DNA from: Oscillatoriales cyanobacterium
Lineage (GTDB): Bacteria; Cyanobacteriota; Cyanobacteriia; Cyanobacteriales; Microcoleaceae
Direction of reading: 5' to 3'
Length of the DNA: 64,000 nucleotides
Assembly (NCBI GenBank): GCA_004293365.1
Contig: RDYN01000058.1
Coordinates: 1 to 64,000, forward strand
This document shows, in pieces, positions 25,931 to 47,874 of this stretch. Made by a program: the position numbers and the translations under genes. The notes beneath the pieces were generated by a model. It was not told the DNA's origin. It worked only from the letters and a program-made list of their open reading frames with translations, and made no database searches. Each line of letters starts with the position of its first letter. Within the stretch, counting starts at the first letter, position 1.

Positions 25931-26044
25931 TGGGTTCACGGGGGGAGCATCTTGACTGATATAAAATCGGCAGTGCAGGAGTTGAACCTGCCTGAGGCGA
26001 ATTAGTTGCCTAAGCATAGAAGTTGCCTCCTATACTCGGCTGCC

Positions 26045-26079
26045 AAACCGGACGTACACCTTTCGGCGTATCCGGCTTT
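26045..26079 (-). ncRNA. Group II intron domain V
   Basis: The minus strand reads AAGCCGGATACGCC-GAAA-GGTGTACGTCCGGTTT: a 34-nt hairpin with a GAAA tetraloop, a two-base bulge and the conserved catalytic AGC near its 5' end, the usual domain V design (the sequence is divided here at the loop). Confidence 0.9.
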
Positions 26080-26082
26080 ACG

Positions 26083-27807
26083 TTAGATGGAATCTGTAAT
26101 AGACCCCGCATTTTCTAAGTGGATAGCATCGTGGCAGTGTAGGTGAACTAAGGTCTTGTTTGACCTTTTATTGTTGTTCCTATTACCGTCGATGTGATGA
26201 ACCTCAATGTAATCTTCAGTGGTGAAAAGTTGTTGACAGTGAGAGCATCGACCCTTCTGATTTTTCAACCCGAATCGAATGTCTTTAGGTGTTAATGGGT
26301 GGTCGCCTCGACGTGTAACCCAATATACCCAATCTCCGTCATAGGGGCTCCTAGTGCCTTGTACCTTAGTGTAGTGCTTATACTCAAACGAGTACAACAT
26401 TTCTACTAAGTAAAGACGATCTCCCTCTTTCCATCCAAAGTTCCACGATGATTCCTTGCTTTTGAAGAATATTCGCGAGCAAATATATCCATCCCCTTTT
26501 TGAGAAAATTTCTTTCTCCCCCAGTTCAAGTAAACCTTATATAGGTTGTGTTGAACTTTGGAGAATACTTCGTGTGAATGACTTCCACTTTTGAAGTAAT
26601 TTCCCCAGCCTCTAATGAACCAGTTGAGGCTTTCAATCATTCGAGTTGGCTCTTGGGATTGTCCTTTGTTTAGTAGGGCTTTCAGATGGGATTGAAATTC
26701 TTTTATGGATTTATCTGAAGGTAGCACTTTCGTTACCATCTCCAAAGATTCGCCATTAGTCTTCTTTCCTGCCCTGTTTTTCCCTCTAGCAAAGGATTGG
26801 ATATGGAATCCTAAGAAATTGAAACCCGGCTTTTCTCCTTCATATTCCTCTAATGTGTGGCATATTTTGGTCTTTTGCTCGTTTAGAGAAAGTCCTAGGT
26901 TTGCCATCCATTGTTTGGTCTTTTCAAGAGCTGCCTTGATTACTTCTTCCTCTTCGTGGATTATTACGAAGTCGTCGGCATATCTTATTACTCTCGCTTC
27001 ACAATATTCCTTCATTTTTCCTTTAGGTTGACCTATTCTTGTCTTCCTTGTGGGAAATTCGGAGGAGATATAGCTTTCAAAGCCATGTAGGGCAATGTTT
27101 GCTAATAGTGGAGATATGACGGCGCCTTGTGGGGTTCCTGATACTGTCTTATGAAAAACATCGCCTACTAGGACGCCTGATTTGAGCCAAGCTCTTATCT
27201 GGGTTTCCATGTCTGGAAAAGTTTTCAGTTTTTGTATCAGAGCCTCGTGGTCAATATTATCGAAACATCCTTTTAAGTCTGCATCTATTAGATACTTGGG
27301 CTTTTTTCGGATGCTTAATTCGATTGCCTCTATGGCATCGTGGCAACTCCTACCTGGTCGAAATCCGTAAGAATTCGGTTCAAATAGTGCCTCCCATTCA
27401 GGCTCTAGAGCTAACTTTGCTAATGCTTGTTTCGCTCTGTCTTCTATCGTGGGAATGCCTAGAGGACGTTTCTCCTTTTTGCCCGGTTTTGGAATTTCAA
27501 CTCTTCTTAGAGGGGAGCTTTTACCGTCTAGTCGTAACTGTTCGGCTAGTATTACCCTTTGTTGAGGAGTCAGAGATTTAATCCCGTCAATTCCCGCCGT
27601 GCGTTTCCCTTTGTTTTCTTGTGTTACGCGACGAACTGCTACCAGTCTTGCGCTAAACGAAGAAATTAAGGTTTTTTGGAGTTTGACTACGAGTGGTTTA
27701 TTTCCACTCTTGGATGCTTCGTAAATCTTCGTCTGTAGCTTTATCACCCTTGTCTGGATTTCACTCCATTCAATAGATGACCATTCCGCTTCTAGAGCCT
27801 TGGACAT
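26083..27807 (-). CDS. ltrA: Group II intron-encoded protein: reverse transcriptase, maturase and HNH endonuclease
   Basis: The 574-residue protein assists splicing of its own intron and drives retrohoming. Parts in order: RT0/RT1-3 (GIDGIKSLTP, KKEKRPLGIPTIEDRAKQAL, NSYGFRPGRSCHDAI); DADLKGCFDNIDH (RT3, catalytic Asp near 176); TPQGAVISPLLANI (RT4); RYADDF (RT5, catalytic YADD 276-279); RT7; then the X/maturase domain (about 350-500) and a C-terminal HNH zinc region (about 521-560) with CSHCQQLF, HHIDGN and HCHDAIH. No residue essential for RT or HNH is obviously missing. Its stop codon lies only 3 bases before domain V, so the ORF takes up essentially all of the end of domain IV. Its host gene is a tRNA, not the more usual intergenic or protein-coding site. 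Confidence 0.95.
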   Translation of the reverse strand: MSKALEAEWSSIEWSEIQTRVIKLQTKIYEASKSGNKPLVVKLQKTLISSFSARLVAVRRVTQENKGKRTAGIDGIKSLTPQQRVILAEQLRLDGKSSPLRRVEIPKPGKKEKRPLGIPTIEDRAKQALAKLALEPEWEALFEPNSYGFRPGRSCHDAIEAIELSIRKKPKYLIDADLKGCFDNIDHEALIQKLKTFPDMETQIRAWLKSGVLVGDVFHKTVSGTPQGAVISPLLANIALHGFESYISSEFPTRKTRIGQPKGKMKEYCEARVIRYADDFVIIHEEEEVIKAALEKTKQWMANLGLSLNEQKTKICHTLEEYEGEKPGFNFLGFHIQSFARGKNRAGKKTNGESLEMVTKVLPSDKSIKEFQSHLKALLNKGQSQEPTRMIESLNWFIRGWGNYFKSGSHSHEVFSKVQHNLYKVYLNWGRKKFSQKGDGYICSRIFFKSKESSWNFGWKEGDRLYLVEMLYSFEYKHYTKVQGTRSPYDGDWVYWVTRRGDHPLTPKDIRFGLKNQKGRCSHCQQLFTTEDYIEVHHIDGNRNNNKRSNKTLVHLHCHDAIHLENAGSITDSI

Positions 27808-28663
27808 AGCCGACCTACGTGATTTACATCTTTCTAACGTTCAATCTTTTGGCGTATCCCACACATTACATGGGGGCTTTTGCTTGAGATTGAATCCTTC
27901 ACATCTTTGATTTACCTAGCAGGTAATCCCTGTTAAGGGCTTATATCTTAGATGTTTCCCTCTTATCCTTATCGAGCATATATGACGATTTAGGTGCCTG
28001 CTTTCTCCAGATGGGATTTATTGGATCGTCTCTAGGGTACTCAAGACCTAGTTTCCTTCCCATGTGTCCTTTTGAACCCAGCGTGTCATTCCATTTTCGC
28101 TGGTGCGTCTGACTGGAGTTGGTAATGCAGGTTCACTTTCGTTCACCTTGTCGTCTCCCTCCCCTAATTACTGTGTGTGGATTCACCTAGTAAATGGGTT
28201 TTACCTCTAGCTTATAAATCCTGGGTGTTGCTAGTTCCCAGAACCGAGATATGGAGTCCCCAGACGAATATGGGGGATGGAATTGCACCATCATGCTCGA
28301 TAGGCATCAAGTCGCACTGAGTTCGCTGCCTAAACCGCTCGGCCAACTGCCGTTAGATCGCTAAGCGCGATCGAACTGAAAAGTAGTATAACATAATTTC
28401 CCAGTCCGTGCTAAAACTAGAGAACAAAAATCAAAATCTTTTAGATCTGCCGAACCCGCGATCGCCTGCATCACCTCTGTGCTGGAGTCGATCGACTGGA
28501 ATTAGCAGTTTCTATGATTTGGAATCAACTTATAGGCAATGGCAGTCAACAAGCCACCGTTAAATCGGAGTACCGACTATAACGGGGGCTTGAAAGATAG
28601 CCCTAGTTGACCAGACTCAGGCAGTAATGCCTGCGTTAGTGGCAAGGCGTTTAACTAATACGA

Positions 28664-29398: not shown

Positions 29399-30085
29399 GT
29401 GAATTCGACGGTAGTGCTGACTCTTATTCTGCTCGGTCTGATGTTTGGAGCAGGTGTGACGAGTTCTGTTTGGGGATTTACTATAGGTCGCGAAGCCTTG
29501 AAAGGAACGACTCAACCTGATGTTCGCCCCAGCAACAATGCTGGAAGCGGCAAGCAGGGAAGTGCGACTAGCAAAGACCAAGTGAGTATTTTGAAAGAAA
29601 AAGACATTCTCAAAACCGTCAAAGCGCGGGTAGAAGGTCGCGATCCTGACAAAAAAACAGCCGGGACAAATACTAAAGCAGACAAGGCAAGCCCTAAACC
29701 AGCCACAGCCAAAAAACCGGCTGCGGCCAATGCCAGCGCCAAGTTTCCTTTGAACAGTCGCGACGGGGGAGTAACTCTGGAAGTGAGCGCCGCCAGCCAG
29801 CGCAGCAACTCGATGTTGCTAGACGTGAGCATGAAAAACGAAGGTTCCCAAGCTGTGAGGTTTCTCTACAGTTTCTTGAACGTCACTGACAATCAAGGGC
29901 GAGCACTTTCGGCGACTGCTGAGGATTTGCCGGCGGAACTTCCCCCCAACGGGCAGGTGTATTACGGTACGGTGAGTATTCCTACAGCTTTGCTGGAAAA
30001 TGCTAAGGAAATTTCGCTGACGCTGACAGATTATCCAGGCCAAAAACTCCAGTTGCAAATATCTGGCATTCCAGTGGCAAAGTAA
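29399..30085 (+). CDS. Membrane-anchored protein with a beta-sandwich-like C-terminal domain
   Basis: Function unknown. From the GTG start (ribosome site ggagg seven bases upstream) the 228 residues begin with a single N-terminal membrane helix (VVLTLILLGLMFGAGVTSSVWGF, in two parts), then a Lys/Ala/Pro-rich linker of about 90 residues (KPATAKKPAAANASAK) and a 110-residue domain with alternating beta pattern (GGVTLEVSAASQRSNSMLLD, AVRFLYSFLNVTDNQG, QLQISGIPV) reminiscent of DUF4352/immunoglobulin-like folds. An open frame from ATG 29316 (MQYRPWPPFPLTAKPS...) ends 83 nt later out of phase at a six-A run and would join this gene by a one-base shift; see findings. Confidence 0.7.
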   Translation: MNSTVVLTLILLGLMFGAGVTSSVWGFTIGREALKGTTQPDVRPSNNAGSGKQGSATSKDQVSILKEKDILKTVKARVEGRDPDKKTAGTNTKADKASPKPATAKKPAAANASAKFPLNSRDGGVTLEVSAASQRSNSMLLDVSMKNEGSQAVRFLYSFLNVTDNQGRALSATAEDLPAELPPNGQVYYGTVSIPTALLENAKEISLTLTDYPGQKLQLQISGIPVAK

Positions 30086-30250
30086 TAGCATTGGCGATTG
30101 GCGATTGGCGATTGGGAATGACTGATGAATGAAGTGTTTGGAGCAGGGGCTTACAGTTGCATTCTTTTGGAAAATGGTATAAGACAAAAGGAGACAAAAC
30201 CTCCAGACTGATTCTCAGGTTCGATCGAGAAAGTTGTTCTAGGGAGAATT

Positions 30251-31729
30251 GTGTCACTTTTAGGGGCTAGAGTTCAGGAGATAGCTGATTTACCTGCGAT
30301 GAGTTGGGCAGAGGTGCTGTCGCGGTTGCTGTCAGTGCTGCTGCTGATTGCGATCAATGCTTTTTTCGTGACGGCTGAGTTTTCGATGGTGACGGTACGC
30401 CGATCGCGCATCAATCAATTAGTCGAGGCCGGCGATGTTCCGGCGATCACTGTTCAATCTTTGATACACAGTATCGAGCGATTGCTCTCGACAATGCAGT
30501 TGGGGATCACTCTTTCTAGTTTAGCTCTCGGCTGGATTGGAGAAGATACGATCGCCGTACTGATCCGAATGTCGATCGGCTATTTGCCGCTGCCAATTTA
30601 TCTCAAATCGGCGATCGCCCATTCTGCCAGCATCTCAATAGTAACTTTTTTCCTGCTAGCTTACCTGCAAATTGTACTCGGCGAAATCCTGCCCAAATCT
30701 GTAGCCTTAGTTTATTCCGAACAGCTAGCCAGAAGTTTAGGGCCTCCGAGTTTATTGATTTCCCGCTTGTTCAATCCCTTTGTGTCGTTTCTCAATCAAT
30801 CCACGCGATCGCTATTGCAGCTTGCGGGAATCGAATACGAGCGCACGCACCAGCCAGTGACGCCCCAAGAACTGCAATTAATTATAGCGACTTCCAGCGA
30901 ATCAAGCGGGTTGGAAGCAGAAGAGCGAGAATTGCTCAACAACGTGTTTGAATTTGGCGAAGTTTGCGTAGAAGAAGTGATGGTGCCAAGGCCCAGCATT
31001 GTGGCACTTCCTAAGACGGCTACCTTTCAAAATTTGCTGGACGAAATGGCGATTTCCAACCATTCCCGCTATCCTGTCACGGGAGATTCTTTAGACGATA
31101 TTATCGGGATTATTGGCTTCAAACAACTGGCGAAACCCTTAGCTGAAGGTTTGCTATCTCCCGACACGCCGATCGTAACTTGGATTAGTGCGGTGAGATT
31201 TGTGCCGGAAATGATGCTGCTGGGGGAATTACTGCCTTTGATGCAGGGTTCGTCGGAAGAAATTGCGATCGTCGTCGATGAATTTGGTGGCATTTCCGGG
31301 TTGGTGACGCTGAGGGATTTGATCGCTGAAATTATCGGCCGCACTTACGAATCGCCCGATAACAAAGAGATTGCTTTGCAAGTATTGGACGATCGCACTT
31401 TTTTAGCGCAAGCACAGTTAAATGTAGATGATGTCAATCAAATATTAAATTTGGACTTGCAGGTGACAGACGAATATCAAACTCTCGGAGGTTTTCTGAG
31501 TTATCAGTTGCAAAGAATGCCGGCTGTCGGGGAAGTTTGGCGCTGCGAAAATGCGGAACTTACGGTGGTTTCTGCGTGCGGGCCCAGGTTGGATCAAATT
31601 CAAATTCAGTTGCTGGATGGGGCGGCGCGCGATCGAGTTTTGGGTGAAGTTGCAGCGGCGGGCGGGGAAGTTGGGGGAAAAGGGCGATCGAATAGCGGAT
31701 TGAAGGGTGCCGCGAAGTTTTCTAGTTAG
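30251..31729 (+). CDS. CNNM/CorC-HlyC family membrane protein (hemolysin-like)
   Basis: Proteins of this family are linked to Mg2+/Co2+ efflux. The 492 residues comprise a DUF21 transmembrane domain (about 20-200, with TAEFSMVTVRRSRINQLVEAG and LGEILPKSVAL), a CBS pair (about 215-345, VMVPRPSIVALPKTATFQNLL, RYPVTGDSLDDIIGI, VVDEFGGISGLVTLRDL) and a C-terminal CorC_HlyC domain (about 365-445). GTG at 30251 is taken as start; gagaat lies upstream. The order and length are those of bacterial CNNM homologues. Ion specificity cannot be read from the sequence. Downstream the region decays into repeats and a GGDEF remnant. Confidence 0.88.
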   Translation: MSLLGARVQEIADLPAMSWAEVLSRLLSVLLLIAINAFFVTAEFSMVTVRRSRINQLVEAGDVPAITVQSLIHSIERLLSTMQLGITLSSLALGWIGEDTIAVLIRMSIGYLPLPIYLKSAIAHSASISIVTFFLLAYLQIVLGEILPKSVALVYSEQLARSLGPPSLLISRLFNPFVSFLNQSTRSLLQLAGIEYERTHQPVTPQELQLIIATSSESSGLEAEERELLNNVFEFGEVCVEEVMVPRPSIVALPKTATFQNLLDEMAISNHSRYPVTGDSLDDIIGIIGFKQLAKPLAEGLLSPDTPIVTWISAVRFVPEMMLLGELLPLMQGSSEEIAIVVDEFGGISGLVTLRDLIAEIIGRTYESPDNKEIALQVLDDRTFLAQAQLNVDDVNQILNLDLQVTDEYQTLGGFLSYQLQRMPAVGEVWRCENAELTVVSACGPRLDQIQIQLLDGAARDRVLGEVAAAGGEVGGKGRSNSGLKGAAKFSS

Positions 31730-44814: not shown

Positions 44815-45564
44815 CTATATAAACACTAGCGGCTTATTTTTGAAAGGAGCAAAAGCGGCAGCATCAAAGCGGTACAAACTAGCAGGGCGCCCTGCACCTC
44901 GCGAAACCTTAACACGGGTATCGCACAAAAAGCCCAATTTCAACAATCGAGCTCTAAAATTAGAATAATCAGAAAAATTTTCCCCCAAAATAGTAGTATA
45001 CAATTGATACAGATCGCTCAAAGTAAAAAGCTCCGGCAAAACTTCAAAAGCTACGGGACTGTATTCAAGTTTGTTGCGGAGTCGCCGGTATCCGTATTCG
45101 AGAATTTGATTGTGATCGAAGGCTAGCTTAGGAACTTGTTGGACGGGATACCAAGCAATGCCGCCGACGCGGTGCCCGACGCCCGCAACTACACTTCCAG
45201 CAATCAATTCAGCTTCTTCAAACCGCACCAAAGCAAAATAACTCACCGAAAGATAGCGATCGCCCCTGGTGAATTCTCTCGGATCCCGCCCGGGTTCTCC
45301 AAAAGTATACAGTTGCTCCAGATACAAATTTTCTACTCTAATTTTCTCCGACAAAATCCGGTAAGCTGCATTTTCCAGAGACTCTCCGTGCCGTACCAAA
45401 GTACCGGGAAGACTCCAAGAATCGATAAATGGTTCGTCTTGTCGCATTACCAACAGCACTAACAAGCGGTTCTGTACGGTATCGACGGAGAAAATTACAT
45501 TATCTACTCCTACTTTAAAGTCAGCTAACGAGCAACCTTCGCTCTTTTTTGTGCCTCGTGCCAT
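44815..45564 (-). CDS. nrtR: NrtR-like Nudix-related transcriptional regulator of NAD metabolism
   Basis: NrtR proteins combine an inactive Nudix domain, which binds ADP-ribose, with a C-terminal winged helix and repress NAD synthesis and salvage genes. This 249-residue protein has both: a Nudix fold (about 15-150) and a wHTH (about 165-245, LPELFTLSDLYQLYTTILGE, FRARLLKLGFL, GRPASLYRFD). The Nudix box at about 54-77 is degenerate: RILSEKIRV stands where REUxEExGU is expected, so hydrolysis is unlikely. It overlaps the end of nadD by 40 bp (translational coupling) and lies beside nadE and pncB, which supports the assignment. An active hydrolase is the alternative. Confidence 0.85.
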   Translation of the reverse strand: MARGTKKSEGCSLADFKVGVDNVIFSVDTVQNRLLVLLVMRQDEPFIDSWSLPGTLVRHGESLENAAYRILSEKIRVENLYLEQLYTFGEPGRDPREFTRGDRYLSVSYFALVRFEEAELIAGSVVAGVGHRVGGIAWYPVQQVPKLAFDHNQILEYGYRRLRNKLEYSPVAFEVLPELFTLSDLYQLYTTILGENFSDYSNFRARLLKLGFLCDTRVKVSRGAGRPASLYRFDAAAFAPFKNKPLVFI

Positions 45565-46124
45565 GCGTACAAATGCTCCCGATTAATGTAATCTTCGATA
45601 GTCGGAGTTAGGGCTTCGGTGTCTCCTGTTTCGCGATAGGAAGTTGAAGAAACATCGGGAGCGTTCAAAGATGCGATCGCCACTTCTGCACCCATGCGCC
45701 TCAACTGCCACAAATCTAACTGTTCTGATGGATAACCAGGGCGCGGTACTATCAACAACTCTACTTCTTTTAACAACTGTTCAAATTTGTACCAGCGAGG
45801 CAGTTGTCCCACCAAGTCGGAGCCTATTACCATCGTCAACTCTGCATCCGGCCACTGCAATCTTGCTTGTTCCACGGTTTCTAGCGTCCTCGGGCTGCTG
45901 AGTTCTGGATGCAAGCAAAGGTTGTGTCTGGGCGAATTAATTTCTTGAATGATTAACAGCAGCATTGCCGATCGGTGTTCGAGGGATGTTTGGTGCGACT
46001 TGAAAGGATTGTCCGACGCCCAAACTGCTACCCAATCAAAATGCTGAGAAAGCCAATTCAGGATTGTTTTGTGTCCGGCTGTCGGCGGATCGGCGCTGGT
46101 TCCAAACAAGGCAATTTTTTGCAT
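45525..46124 (-). CDS. nadD: Nicotinate-nucleotide adenylyltransferase
   Basis: NadD joins nicotinate mononucleotide and ATP to form deamido-NAD. With the start at 46124 (MQKIALFGTSADPPTAGHK) the 199 residues begin in the nucleotidyltransferase motif GTSADPPTAGH (GxFDPxHxGH family). Also seen are WVAVWASDNPFKSH, TMVIGSDLVGQLPRWYK and, at the end, VSSTSYRETGD, the counterpart of the ISSTxIR motif. The longer frame upstream runs into a ggaattgggaa tandem repeat and was discarded. The gene is overlapped by nrtR. Confidence 0.92.
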   Translation of the reverse strand: MQKIALFGTSADPPTAGHKTILNWLSQHFDWVAVWASDNPFKSHQTSLEHRSAMLLLIIQEINSPRHNLCLHPELSSPRTLETVEQARLQWPDAELTMVIGSDLVGQLPRWYKFEQLLKEVELLIVPRPGYPSEQLDLWQLRRMGAEVAIASLNAPDVSSTSYRETGDTEALTPTIEDYINREHLYAWHEAQKRAKVAR

Positions 46125-46470
46125 AGGGAATTGGTAATGGGGAATGGGGAATTGGGAATTGGGCATTGGGAATTGGGCATTGGGAGTTGAAATAAATACT
46201 AATAAACCAAGGGTGTCAACTTAATTATCAAACGTAGTTCAAAGCCTGCTGTTTGATGATTAACCTCTCGATCCCCCCTAACCCCCCTTAAAAAGGGGGG
46301 GACAAGAGCGATCGAATTCCTCTCACAAAGGAGGGACTGTAAGCTTTCAAAGTCCCCCTTATTAAGGGGGATTTAGGGGGATCTAGACGCTTTGTAGAAG
46401 CGAGATATTTCATGAATTTTAGTCGGAACTTGACACCAATAACTAATGAATGATGAATGATGACCAATAA
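46125..46470. other. Spacer with ggaattgg repeats and a large gatcccccctaa palindrome
   Basis: Tandem ggaattgg/gggcattgg units (46135-46185) are followed by an inverted repeat: cgatcccccctaaccccc / aaaaagggggggacaag and then ctcccttattaagggggatt and gggggatc (46271-46385). The family also occurs at 33305. No gene. Confidence 0.7.
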
Positions 46471-47874
46471 CTAATGACTCTTTTTCGTTTTTTGAGTTAG
46501 ACTCTGCAAATCGGTAGAAATTTCCATTGGCGGCGAAATCGGGTTATTTAGTTGGCGAGTTTGTGCAGGCAGACTGGCGACAGAAGCCGCAGTTCGTTTG
46601 GCGATCGCCTCCAAACTTTCCGGCTCCTGGACTCGTTTGCCATCCTTGACAACCAATTGCATCAATGGTATGCGAGAAGCAAAATTATGATTTTCTTCTA
46701 CTGTTAGTCCCAAACAATCGCCGATAATTGCTCCATCTTTCACGGTTCTAAAAATTTGCTTTCTTCCTGGATATGTTACCTTGCCGCTGGCCTCTTTCAT
46801 CACGGGCATCCCGTCTATTTCGACCAACTTATAAACACCGTTGACAGGGGAACCGCTGACCAACTTCGTTCCCAAACCGTAACCGTCAATGCAAGCACCG
46901 GCACTTTTTAATTTAGCAATTTCGTGTTCGTCCAAATCACCGCTAGCAATAATTGGCACCCCCGGAAGGATCGATCGCACTTCCCGCGACAATTTTACCA
47001 AATCCCCCGAATCCAGCCGCACGCCTTGCAACGGCATTTCACCGCTGTTTGCTCGCGATGCCAAAATCCGCGCCGCCGCCACAGTATCGTAAGTATCGAT
47101 CAATAGCGGTGCGCCGGGAAAATAGCGGTGAAAAGCTGCAAACGCCTCATCTTCGCTGCCTTCTTGAGCCGACACAGCCATTACCAAAGCATGAGCCATA
47201 GTACCCACAGGTTTGCGGCCCAACTTCAAAGCAGCCAAAACATTAGAAGTACCATCGAGCCCAGCAGCCAAAGCCGCCCTCGCCGCCCACACAGCAGCTT
47301 GAGGCCCAAAAGCCCTGCGCGTCCCAAATTCCAGCAACTTAGCCTCCGGGCCCGCCACATCTCGCAGCCGCGCAGCCCGCGTCGCAATTAAAGTTTGATA
47401 ATTGATCGCATTCAACAAATAAGTTTCGACTAACTGAGCCTGCCACAGAGGAGCCTCGATTCGCAATAGAGGTTCGTTGGCAAATACCGCCGTCCCCTCG
47501 GGTACCGCCCAAACATCGCCAGTAAAGCGGGCTGTGGCGAGTAGAGTCCAAAATCGCTCCGGGGCCCCAGCAAAAATTCCGGTGGACTGCAAAGCCTGAA
47601 TTTGCGCCGGGGAAAACCGCAATTTCTCCAGATAGTCTAGAACTTGGGCTAAACCCATGGCGATCGCATAACCAAAACTCTCTGGTAGCCTCCGCGCGAA
47701 CAATTCAAAACTCGCAGGGCGATCGTCGAGGCCTTCCCCGACGTAACAAGCCGCCATCGTTAGCTGGTAGAGATCGGTCAACAGGCTGTAATCTGCTGGA
47801 GAAACCGTCAATTCCCGATCTTCTAAGATTTCCTCAAAACCTGTGAGGTGCAGGCTTTCTGTCGCAGTTTTCAT
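46471..47874 (-). CDS. pncB: Nicotinate phosphoribosyltransferase
   Basis: It converts nicotinate and PRPP to nicotinate mononucleotide, feeding nadD next door. In 467 residues: SLLTDLYQLTMAACYVGEGL and ASFELFARRLPESFGYAIAMG at the N-terminus, then EFGTRRAFGPQAAVWAARAA, GTMAHALVMAVSAQEGSEDEAF, LIDTYDTVAAAR and GVRLDSGDLVKLSREVR, GYGLGTKLVSG (phosphate-binding) - all hallmarks of the family. It heads the NAD block; 346 bp with repeats lie between it and nadD, so it probably has its own transcript. Confidence 0.94.
   Translation of the reverse strand: MKTATESLHLTGFEEILEDRELTVSPADYSLLTDLYQLTMAACYVGEGLDDRPASFELFARRLPESFGYAIAMGLAQVLDYLEKLRFSPAQIQALQSTGIFAGAPERFWTLLATARFTGDVWAVPEGTAVFANEPLLRIEAPLWQAQLVETYLLNAINYQTLIATRAARLRDVAGPEAKLLEFGTRRAFGPQAAVWAARAALAAGLDGTSNVLAALKLGRKPVGTMAHALVMAVSAQEGSEDEAFAAFHRYFPGAPLLIDTYDTVAAARILASRANSGEMPLQGVRLDSGDLVKLSREVRSILPGVPIIASGDLDEHEIAKLKSAGACIDGYGLGTKLVSGSPVNGVYKLVEIDGMPVMKEASGKVTYPGRKQIFRTVKDGAIIGDCLGLTVEENHNFASRIPLMQLVVKDGKRVQEPESLEAIAKRTAASVASLPAQTRQLNNPISPPMEISTDLQSLTQKTKKSH

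Follow-up and report, generated by a model that had tools for sequence, protein, structure and literature searches.

Here we report that the gene for tRNA-Ile(CAU) of a filamentous cyanobacterium of the Microcoleus/Tychonema group (assembly GCA_004293365.1; genome G000, 7.3 Mb, 218 contigs) is interrupted within its anticodon by a group II intron that encodes its own maturase. The gene lies on the minus strand of the 64,000-nt stretch of contig RDYN01000058.1 that was analysed (the window) at forward-strand positions 25967..28352, and a 2,313-nt insert parts A35 from U36. A split tRNA(CAU) gene of this kind, first noticed by reading the sequence (the original prediction), is confirmed. Considering the insertion site, the empty alleles, the lack of a detected second copy, the ribozyme, the pairing between exon-binding site 1 (EBS1) and intron-binding site 1 (IBS1), purifying selection, low intron divergence and lesions in the reverse transcriptase (RT), all of which are sequence evidence, we estimate a probability of about 0.87 that the insert is a mobile, maturase-assisted and spliced group II intron specialised on the anticodon of an indispensable tRNA. 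G, C and L numbers are our own handles for genomes, contigs and loci.

Interrupted gene and empty alleles

When run without introns, ARAGORN found no tRNA in the window, which illustrates that ordinary tRNA annotation can miss an essential gene. With introns allowed, it returned tRNA(cat) c[25967,28352] with a 2,313-nt intron. This program alone is weak evidence because its second candidate was a spurious 'split tRNA-Arg' (45231-46999), and the decisive evidence came from empty alleles. The sample of the genus comprised 29 genomes, including four with a filled site, 19 with an empty allele that was fetched and six in which the state was not determined. The 19 sites had been picked for fetching because exon halves matched without the intron, and all 19 contained an uninterrupted 73-nt tRNA (...CTCATAAT...), so that the junction is exact. 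The joined exons of the window (...CUCAUAAU... across the splice junction) were identical to the empty alleles except for a variable-loop base (C for T in 15 of the 19) and one further differing base in L218. The insertion point CTCA/TAAT is thus unambiguous, which bears out the predicted position between anticodon bases 35 and 36. Likewise, the expectation that the exons rebuild a 73-nt tRNA with sound stems held, since the joined exons fold with acceptor, anticodon, T and D stems of 7, 5, 5 and 3 bp, respectively, and the congeners carry the same tRNA whole. The intron was found in G000, G011, G012 (Tychonema bourrellyi FEM_GT703) and G018, with insert DNA identities of 100, 97, 92 and 89%. 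It should be noted that G018 is a metagenome-assembled genome (MAG) labelled Richelia sp. CSU_2_1 that falls in the genus of the window; the label looks wrong.

Identity of the tRNA and probable dependence on splicing

The split gene is tRNA-Ile(CAU), the AUA decoder. Besides it, four CAU tRNAs were found in the genome: two initiators (fMet), one elongator-Met-like gene (C89) with what we take to be Met features (U4-A69 and others), and an odd gene in a tRNA array. The tRNA-Met label that ARAGORN gave to the split gene was rejected because its D and anticodon arms resemble those of the Thermosynechococcus elongatus gene (L196) called tRNAIle(CAU) in PMC2882425. The genome has a tilS gene (192 bits), and AUA accounts for 126 of 12,285 codons, and 126 of 830 Ile codons, in the window frames of at least 300 codons.

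A BLAST search of the genome with the split gene revealed no second copy, and the 71 tRNA matches obtained by scoring 150 of 439 candidates included no tRNA-Ile(UAU). We also built a covariance model (R1) from spliced and empty tRNA-Ile(CAU) and scored up to 150 candidates per genome. Intact tRNA-Ile(CAU) reached ∼103 bits in the empty genomes G028 and G037, and the best scores in the filled genomes G000, G011, G012, G018, G196 and G397 were 40-57 bits, the level of other tRNAs. The original suggestion that this might be the only tRNA of its kind in the genome agrees with these searches. As far as they show, AUA seems to be decoded in this genome by the split gene alone, from which dependence of the host on splicing would naturally follow; splicing is presumably essential.

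An alternative is a dead tRNA gene, with AUA read by another tRNA and an intron that is neutral or mildly harmful. The other CAU tRNAs listed above are what such a scenario would need, but none of them scores as Ile(CAU) with R1 (at most 51 bits in G000, compared with 103 bits in empty genomes), the acceptor ends of the array gene do not pair, and tRNA-Ile(UAU) was not found among the 71 matches. Moreover, the exons are intact in all 13 loci discussed below, distant families included, and the maturase is under purifying selection. We therefore regard a dead tRNA as improbable.

In a census of 388 genomes, 45 (hand count) had no match better than E 1e-16. The gene was interrupted in four of the 45 (G000, G196, G397 and G090), and the remaining 40, including G319, are not claimed as interrupted. 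G121, also among the 45, carries an uninterrupted, divergent CAU tRNA (L221:1494-1577) with an Ile(CAU)-like D arm and a long class II variable arm. The array mentioned above (G000:C204:39928-46673, L037) is a dense cluster of ∼25-30 mostly low-scoring tRNA genes, among them the CAU gene with non-pairing acceptor ends, beside a normal tRNA set; it resembles the tRNA arrays on plasmids mentioned in PMC9679502.

Ribozyme structure and predicted recognition of the anticodon

The original prediction of a maturase-encoding group II intron was well founded. Domain V matched RF00029 with 46.9 bits (gathering threshold 40), the sole Rfam match over threshold in the whole window, and RVT_N, RVT_1 and GIIM were identified in the open reading frame (ORF) of the intron. 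No group I core reached its gathering threshold in the window, where Intron_gpII was the only hit. The catalytic AGC of domain V (columns 8-10) is present in 12 of 12 aligned rows. The intron begins with GUGCG, in agreement with GUGYG (GUACG in L091 and L092), and ends with AAC, in agreement with AY. In an alignment of 14 5′ parts, RNAalifold showed compensatory changes in 68 of the 96 pairs predicted for domains I-III. CL types are described for Cyanobacteriota in PMC8919778, and a CL class is expected for the intron of the window.

EBS1 was sought by testing every ungapped 5-7-nt segment of the aligned 5′ part for pairing with exon positions -13 to -1, a match in at least 11 of 13 rows being required. 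A single match was found, UGAGU with ACUCA (-5 to -1), in 12 of the 13 tRNA-resident introns and also in an ectopic relative (L167). The EBS1-IBS1 helix has 5 bp, and the exception, L094, has one mismatch. This pairing suggests that EBS1 reads tRNA bases 31-35, two anticodon bases among them.

Three other domain V matches were observed in the genome (G000:C2:37623-38689, L227; G000:C150:54646-54722, L228). Two of the three flank an RT-HNH fragment at a spacing of ∼1 kb and may mark a group II element that is nested or truncated.

The intron-encoded maturase

The encoded protein had been described as an RT-maturase-HNH protein. The RT and maturase parts are supported by Pfam, and the HNH part, a C-terminal CxxC...HH...CH arrangement in the 574-residue protein, was recognised by eye only. 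Both sets of RT catalytic aspartates, YADD and the motif A D, are kept. The ratio of nonsynonymous to synonymous divergence (dN/dS) was 0.047-0.078 in four comparisons among the window (L057), L058, L059 and L088, 0.06 against Tychonema, and 0.105-0.121 for the ectopic L167 against L169 and L094. Values of 0.18-0.27 were obtained for three Laspinema/Oscillatoria pairs, in which few changes have accumulated, and two further pairs were saturated. Judged by these ratios, the maturase is under strong purifying selection.

Mobility versus inheritance

The introns of G011 (L058) and of record L087 have the same sequence. Between the window and L087, the synonymous divergence (dS) of the maturase was 0.126, whereas that of four flanking genes on the same contig was 0.502-0.789; two flanking genes on the other side, compared with G011, gave 0.571 and 0.613. 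In addition, the site is empty in G037 although its flanking genes are closer to those of the window (dS 0.199-0.368). Since the intron is less diverged than its flanks and a closer relative lacks it, these comparisons point to a recent transfer between species.

Proposed mechanism

We infer that the intron is spliced and that its maturase is translated from the precursor. The tRNA gene would be transcribed through the intron, and the maturase would help the ribozyme to fold. EBS1 would then pair with A31-C32-U33-C34-A35, the bulged A of domain VI would serve as the branch point for release of the intron as a lariat, and the joined exons would restore the CAU anticodon, whose C34 could be turned into lysidine by TilS so that the tRNA reads AUA. 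Once released, the ribonucleoprotein could insert by reverse splicing wherever related cells carry an empty tRNA-Ile(CAU) gene. With a single copy of the tRNA gene, the host could not lose splicing, and the maturase would remain under selection even where mobility has been lost; the RT active site could thus decay repeatedly while the reading frame stays open.

Several observations weigh against this mechanism. First, specificity is not fully explained: no ungapped EBS2 match of 5-7 nt was found in at least 11 of 13 rows, and the elongator tRNA-Met gene has the same ACTCA/TAA junction yet is not invaded. Discrimination against that gene, in which the five bases are identical, must come in addition from IBS2 or from contacts of the protein. 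Second, recent movement is not general. The dS between the window and G012 was 0.422 for the intron and 0.452-0.644 for the flanks, and that between the window and G018, whose frame is broken, was 0.776 for the intron and 0.758 and 0.836 for the flanks; by these values, the introns of G012 and G018 look inherited rather than newly moved. Third, the maturase frame of G018 (L060/L098) is broken by several indels, which would argue against a strict need for the maturase unless they are assembly errors, a possibility in a MAG.

An intron lineage at the anticodon site

By combining a maturase scan (79 loci), matches in 388 genomes of the class and a family search, we identified the same insertion site in 13 distinct loci from several families: the window, L087, L095, L098, L088-L090 (Laspinema), L091 (Phormidium pseudopriestleyi), L092 and L093 (Oscillatoria), L094 (Crocosphaera), L168 (G397) and L169 (G196). 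Acceptor stems vary among them (CGGCAGT/ACTGCCG, GGGCGGT/ACCGCCC, CCAGGGT/ACCCTGG and GCGCCTT/AGGGCGC), and in each type the two strands remain complementary across the intron (the last includes one G-U); in L168, one pair of the anticodon stem shows compensation. This weighs less for the spliced-intron reading than it might, as the CCAGGGT stem also occurs in an empty allele (L223) and exon-exon compensations may predate insertion. An assembly chimera or contamination could be suspected from the 218 contigs of the assembly of the window, but the recurrence of the same structure in 13 distinct loci, including those of the named isolates Laspinema, Tychonema bourrellyi and Phormidium pseudopriestleyi, leaves hardly any room for it.

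In the maturase tree, the anticodon introns and L167 formed one clade with 100% support in the Shimodaira-Hasegawa-like approximate likelihood ratio test (12 tRNA-resident rows plus L167; L098 was left out as not full-length). The ectopic intron (L167:1386-3700, genome G319; YADD) lies at ...CTACTCA/TAAAAT..., which has the ACTCA/TAA core in common with the tRNA site, and is antisense to an ORF that looks by eye like one of pentapeptide repeats, close to its start. Model R1 detected no intact tRNA-Ile(CAU) in G319 (best 39.9 bits), nor was the gene located by the 5′-exon pattern, which also missed G196 (D-loop one base shorter), or by synteny with G326. A dispersed repeat family of ∼100 nt occurs at many places in G326 and G319 (query 818-1030 of L223:1000-4000).

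Loss of reverse-transcriptase residues

Changed RT residues were observed in L088 (YGDN), L089 and L090 (motif A D to E), L094 (YANE), L168 (YADN), L169 (YAHD) and TeI4h, the intron of the T. elongatus gene (L196; YAGD). All seven proteins are encoded in open frames of 562-609 codons, and their RT activity has presumably been lost, judging from the residues concerned. Such changes were present in 7 of 13 distinct full-length tRNA-resident proteins, compared with 1 of the 75 remaining full-length homologues (Fisher p 2e-6 on non-independent rows). The 13 comprise 12 proteins of the anticodon lineage and TeI4h, taken from 15 tRNA rows among 91 full-length rows once the duplicates of L087 and L095 (L058 and L059, respectively) are removed, and the 75 are the 76 others minus L166, a second copy of the window; near-identical copies remain among them. 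The frameshifted L060/L098 were not counted, and neither PTG in place of PQG (L093) nor PQGA (the window) was scored as a lesion. Partial non-tRNA rows were excluded; of these, L120 (YADH) and L105 (YPED) likewise have altered residues, and L161 and L154 were flagged only because the motifs fell outside the match. In a tree of 53 rows, we read six lesions, from our own reading of tree and residues, on 2.49 units of tRNA-resident branch versus one on 16.2 units elsewhere (binomial p 3e-5, without the clade stem of 0.71 units).

Some results temper this pattern. Plain parsimony over the whole tree required 6 changes, of which 5 fall in tRNA-resident introns by count, and would allow one loss common to L168, L094 and L169 with a regain in L167; separate losses are favoured since the lesions differ in kind. 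Independent pairs were in the expected direction in 3 of 3 cases, too few for a test (median p 0.25), and the same data served both to suggest the pattern and to test it. On balance, the evidence leans towards the view that cyanobacteria repeat the history of plastid trnK/matK: a lineage lodged in the sole tRNA-Ile(CAU) gene would have lost RT function ∼5-6 times, TeI4h included, with the maturase preserved, and the RT-intact form would still be spreading in Microcoleus. If true, one locus shows both stages, a mobile parasite and an essential part that only splices. The locus makes the passage from a selfish retroelement to an indispensable splicing factor testable in free-living bacteria, in which empty, apparently mobile and apparently immobile alleles are found. 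Six tRNA-resident relatives and TeI4h combine changed catalytic residues with open frames, compared with one bacterial case named in the 2015 review PMC4424553.

Comparison with known systems

The intron of the window is not the first group II intron in a bacterial tRNA gene, a claim that we rejected because TeI4h precedes it. TeI4h, located in the single-copy tRNAIle(CAU) gene of T. elongatus (PMC2882425), was the sole report of such an intron that we found; subscription literature was mostly outside the search, and earlier reports may exist. Its mobility at 37 °C was 2.5e-5% with YAGD versus 3.4% with YADD, and its sister copies are placed in intergenic regions (PMC2882425). Like the intron of the window, TeI4h is a maturase-encoding group II intron of a cyanobacterial tRNA-Ile(CAU) gene, and its RT motif is changed. 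Unlike it, the fetched TeI4h starts with T and interrupts the D-loop (CCAGGGTTGGCCGAGCG/TTGCGACG..., 3′ boundary approximate).

The two might nevertheless be the same element, inherited or transferred within one tRNA-Ile(CAU) intron family. They occupy the same tRNA gene, and the only PDB match of the protein at E below 1e-60 was 6me0_C, whose aligned stretch is 100% (rounded) identical to the T. elongatus tRNA-resident protein (the motifs differ, YADD versus YAGD). But the proteins are 34% identical, and TeI4h groups in the maturase tree with its siblings L198/L199 of the same genome, far from the anticodon lineage. Site, identity and distant clade together indicate an independent invasion, and common identity with TeI4h is quite unlikely, even less probable than a dead tRNA.

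The original prediction of a free-living counterpart of the plastid arrangement is justified in part, as a parallel of function and not demonstrably of descent; priority belongs to TeI4h, and the protein of the window retains RT aspartates, unlike MatK. Plastid trnK, too, is an essential tRNA gene whose group II intron encodes a maturase, and relatives of the window have lost RT residues with the ORF open. However, trnK is a tRNA-Lys gene, its intron is described as IIA, and MatK aligns over motifs 5-7 only (PMC4424553). The protein of the window aligns throughout, shows no evidence of splicing other introns and, with YADD and the motif A D, differs from the splicing-only state of trnK/matK. 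In PMC4424553, RT-degenerate bacterial proteins are called rare, and O.i.I2 of Oceanobacillus iheyensis is given as the only known one without YADD but with an open ORF; it is a single case of the ML class in a protein gene, radC.

Group I introns of tRNA genes, to our knowledge, come without an RT-maturase. Those of bacteria are self-splicing introns in tRNA genes like that of the window, but they are group I ribozymes, known from cyanobacterial fMet and Leu(UAA) and Azoarcus tRNA-Ile genes (PMC4033280, PMC4390854). Group II introns in bacterial tRNAs are mentioned in passing in PMC4033280, the table of which lists group I for bacteria. As far as our literature search shows, the separate anticodon-site lineage, its polymorphic empty and filled alleles with signs of recent transfer, an EBS1 predicted to read the anticodon and the recurrent loss of RT residues with the frame kept are new.

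Features and neighbourhood of the locus

The features of the locus are listed in Table 1. Near the same place as the TATACT of the window, most printed empty alleles show a GTTATA-like element.

Table 1. Position and basis of each feature of the split tRNA-Ile(CAU) locus (forward-strand window positions)
Feature	Position	Strand	Basis
5′ exon, tRNA-Ile(CAU) positions 1-35, ends ...GAACTCA	28318..28352	-	Equal to congener empty alleles (L218: one base differs)
Group II intron, 2,313 nt, GTGCG...CAAC	26005..28317	-	Absent from 19 fetched empty alleles
3′ exon, tRNA-Ile(CAU) U36 to discriminator A73	25967..26004	-	ARAGORN and empty alleles
Probable -10 element TATACT, upstream of tRNA	28385..28390	-	Sequence; putative function
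Ribozyme domains I-III and start of IV	27808..28317	-	RNAalifold, 14 relatives
EBS1 5′-UGAGU-3′, loop of covarying hairpin (∼28031-28051)	28039..28043	-	Pairing scan
IBS1 5′-ACUCA-3′, tRNA positions 31-35 (A31 and anticodon-loop bases 32-35)	28318..28322	-	Pairing scan
RT-maturase, 574 aa	26083..27807	-	Pfam RVT_N, RVT_1 (YADD), GIIM/domain X, all above cut-offs
Domains V and VI (V ∼26045-26078, VI ∼26008-26040)	26005..26080	-	RF00029; 14 of 28 pairs with double changes
Probable branch-point A, bulged in domain VI, 7 nt from 3′ splice site	26011	-	Unpaired conserved A, column 74; putative role

A gene for a short membrane-anchored protein and/or a CBS/hemolysin-type gene (by eye) was found near tRNA-Ile(CAU) in the window (29399-31729) and in L219, L223, L224, L225, L231 and L232. 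The intron seems to have entered a long-conserved locus, whose neighbours recur in several distant cyanobacteria.

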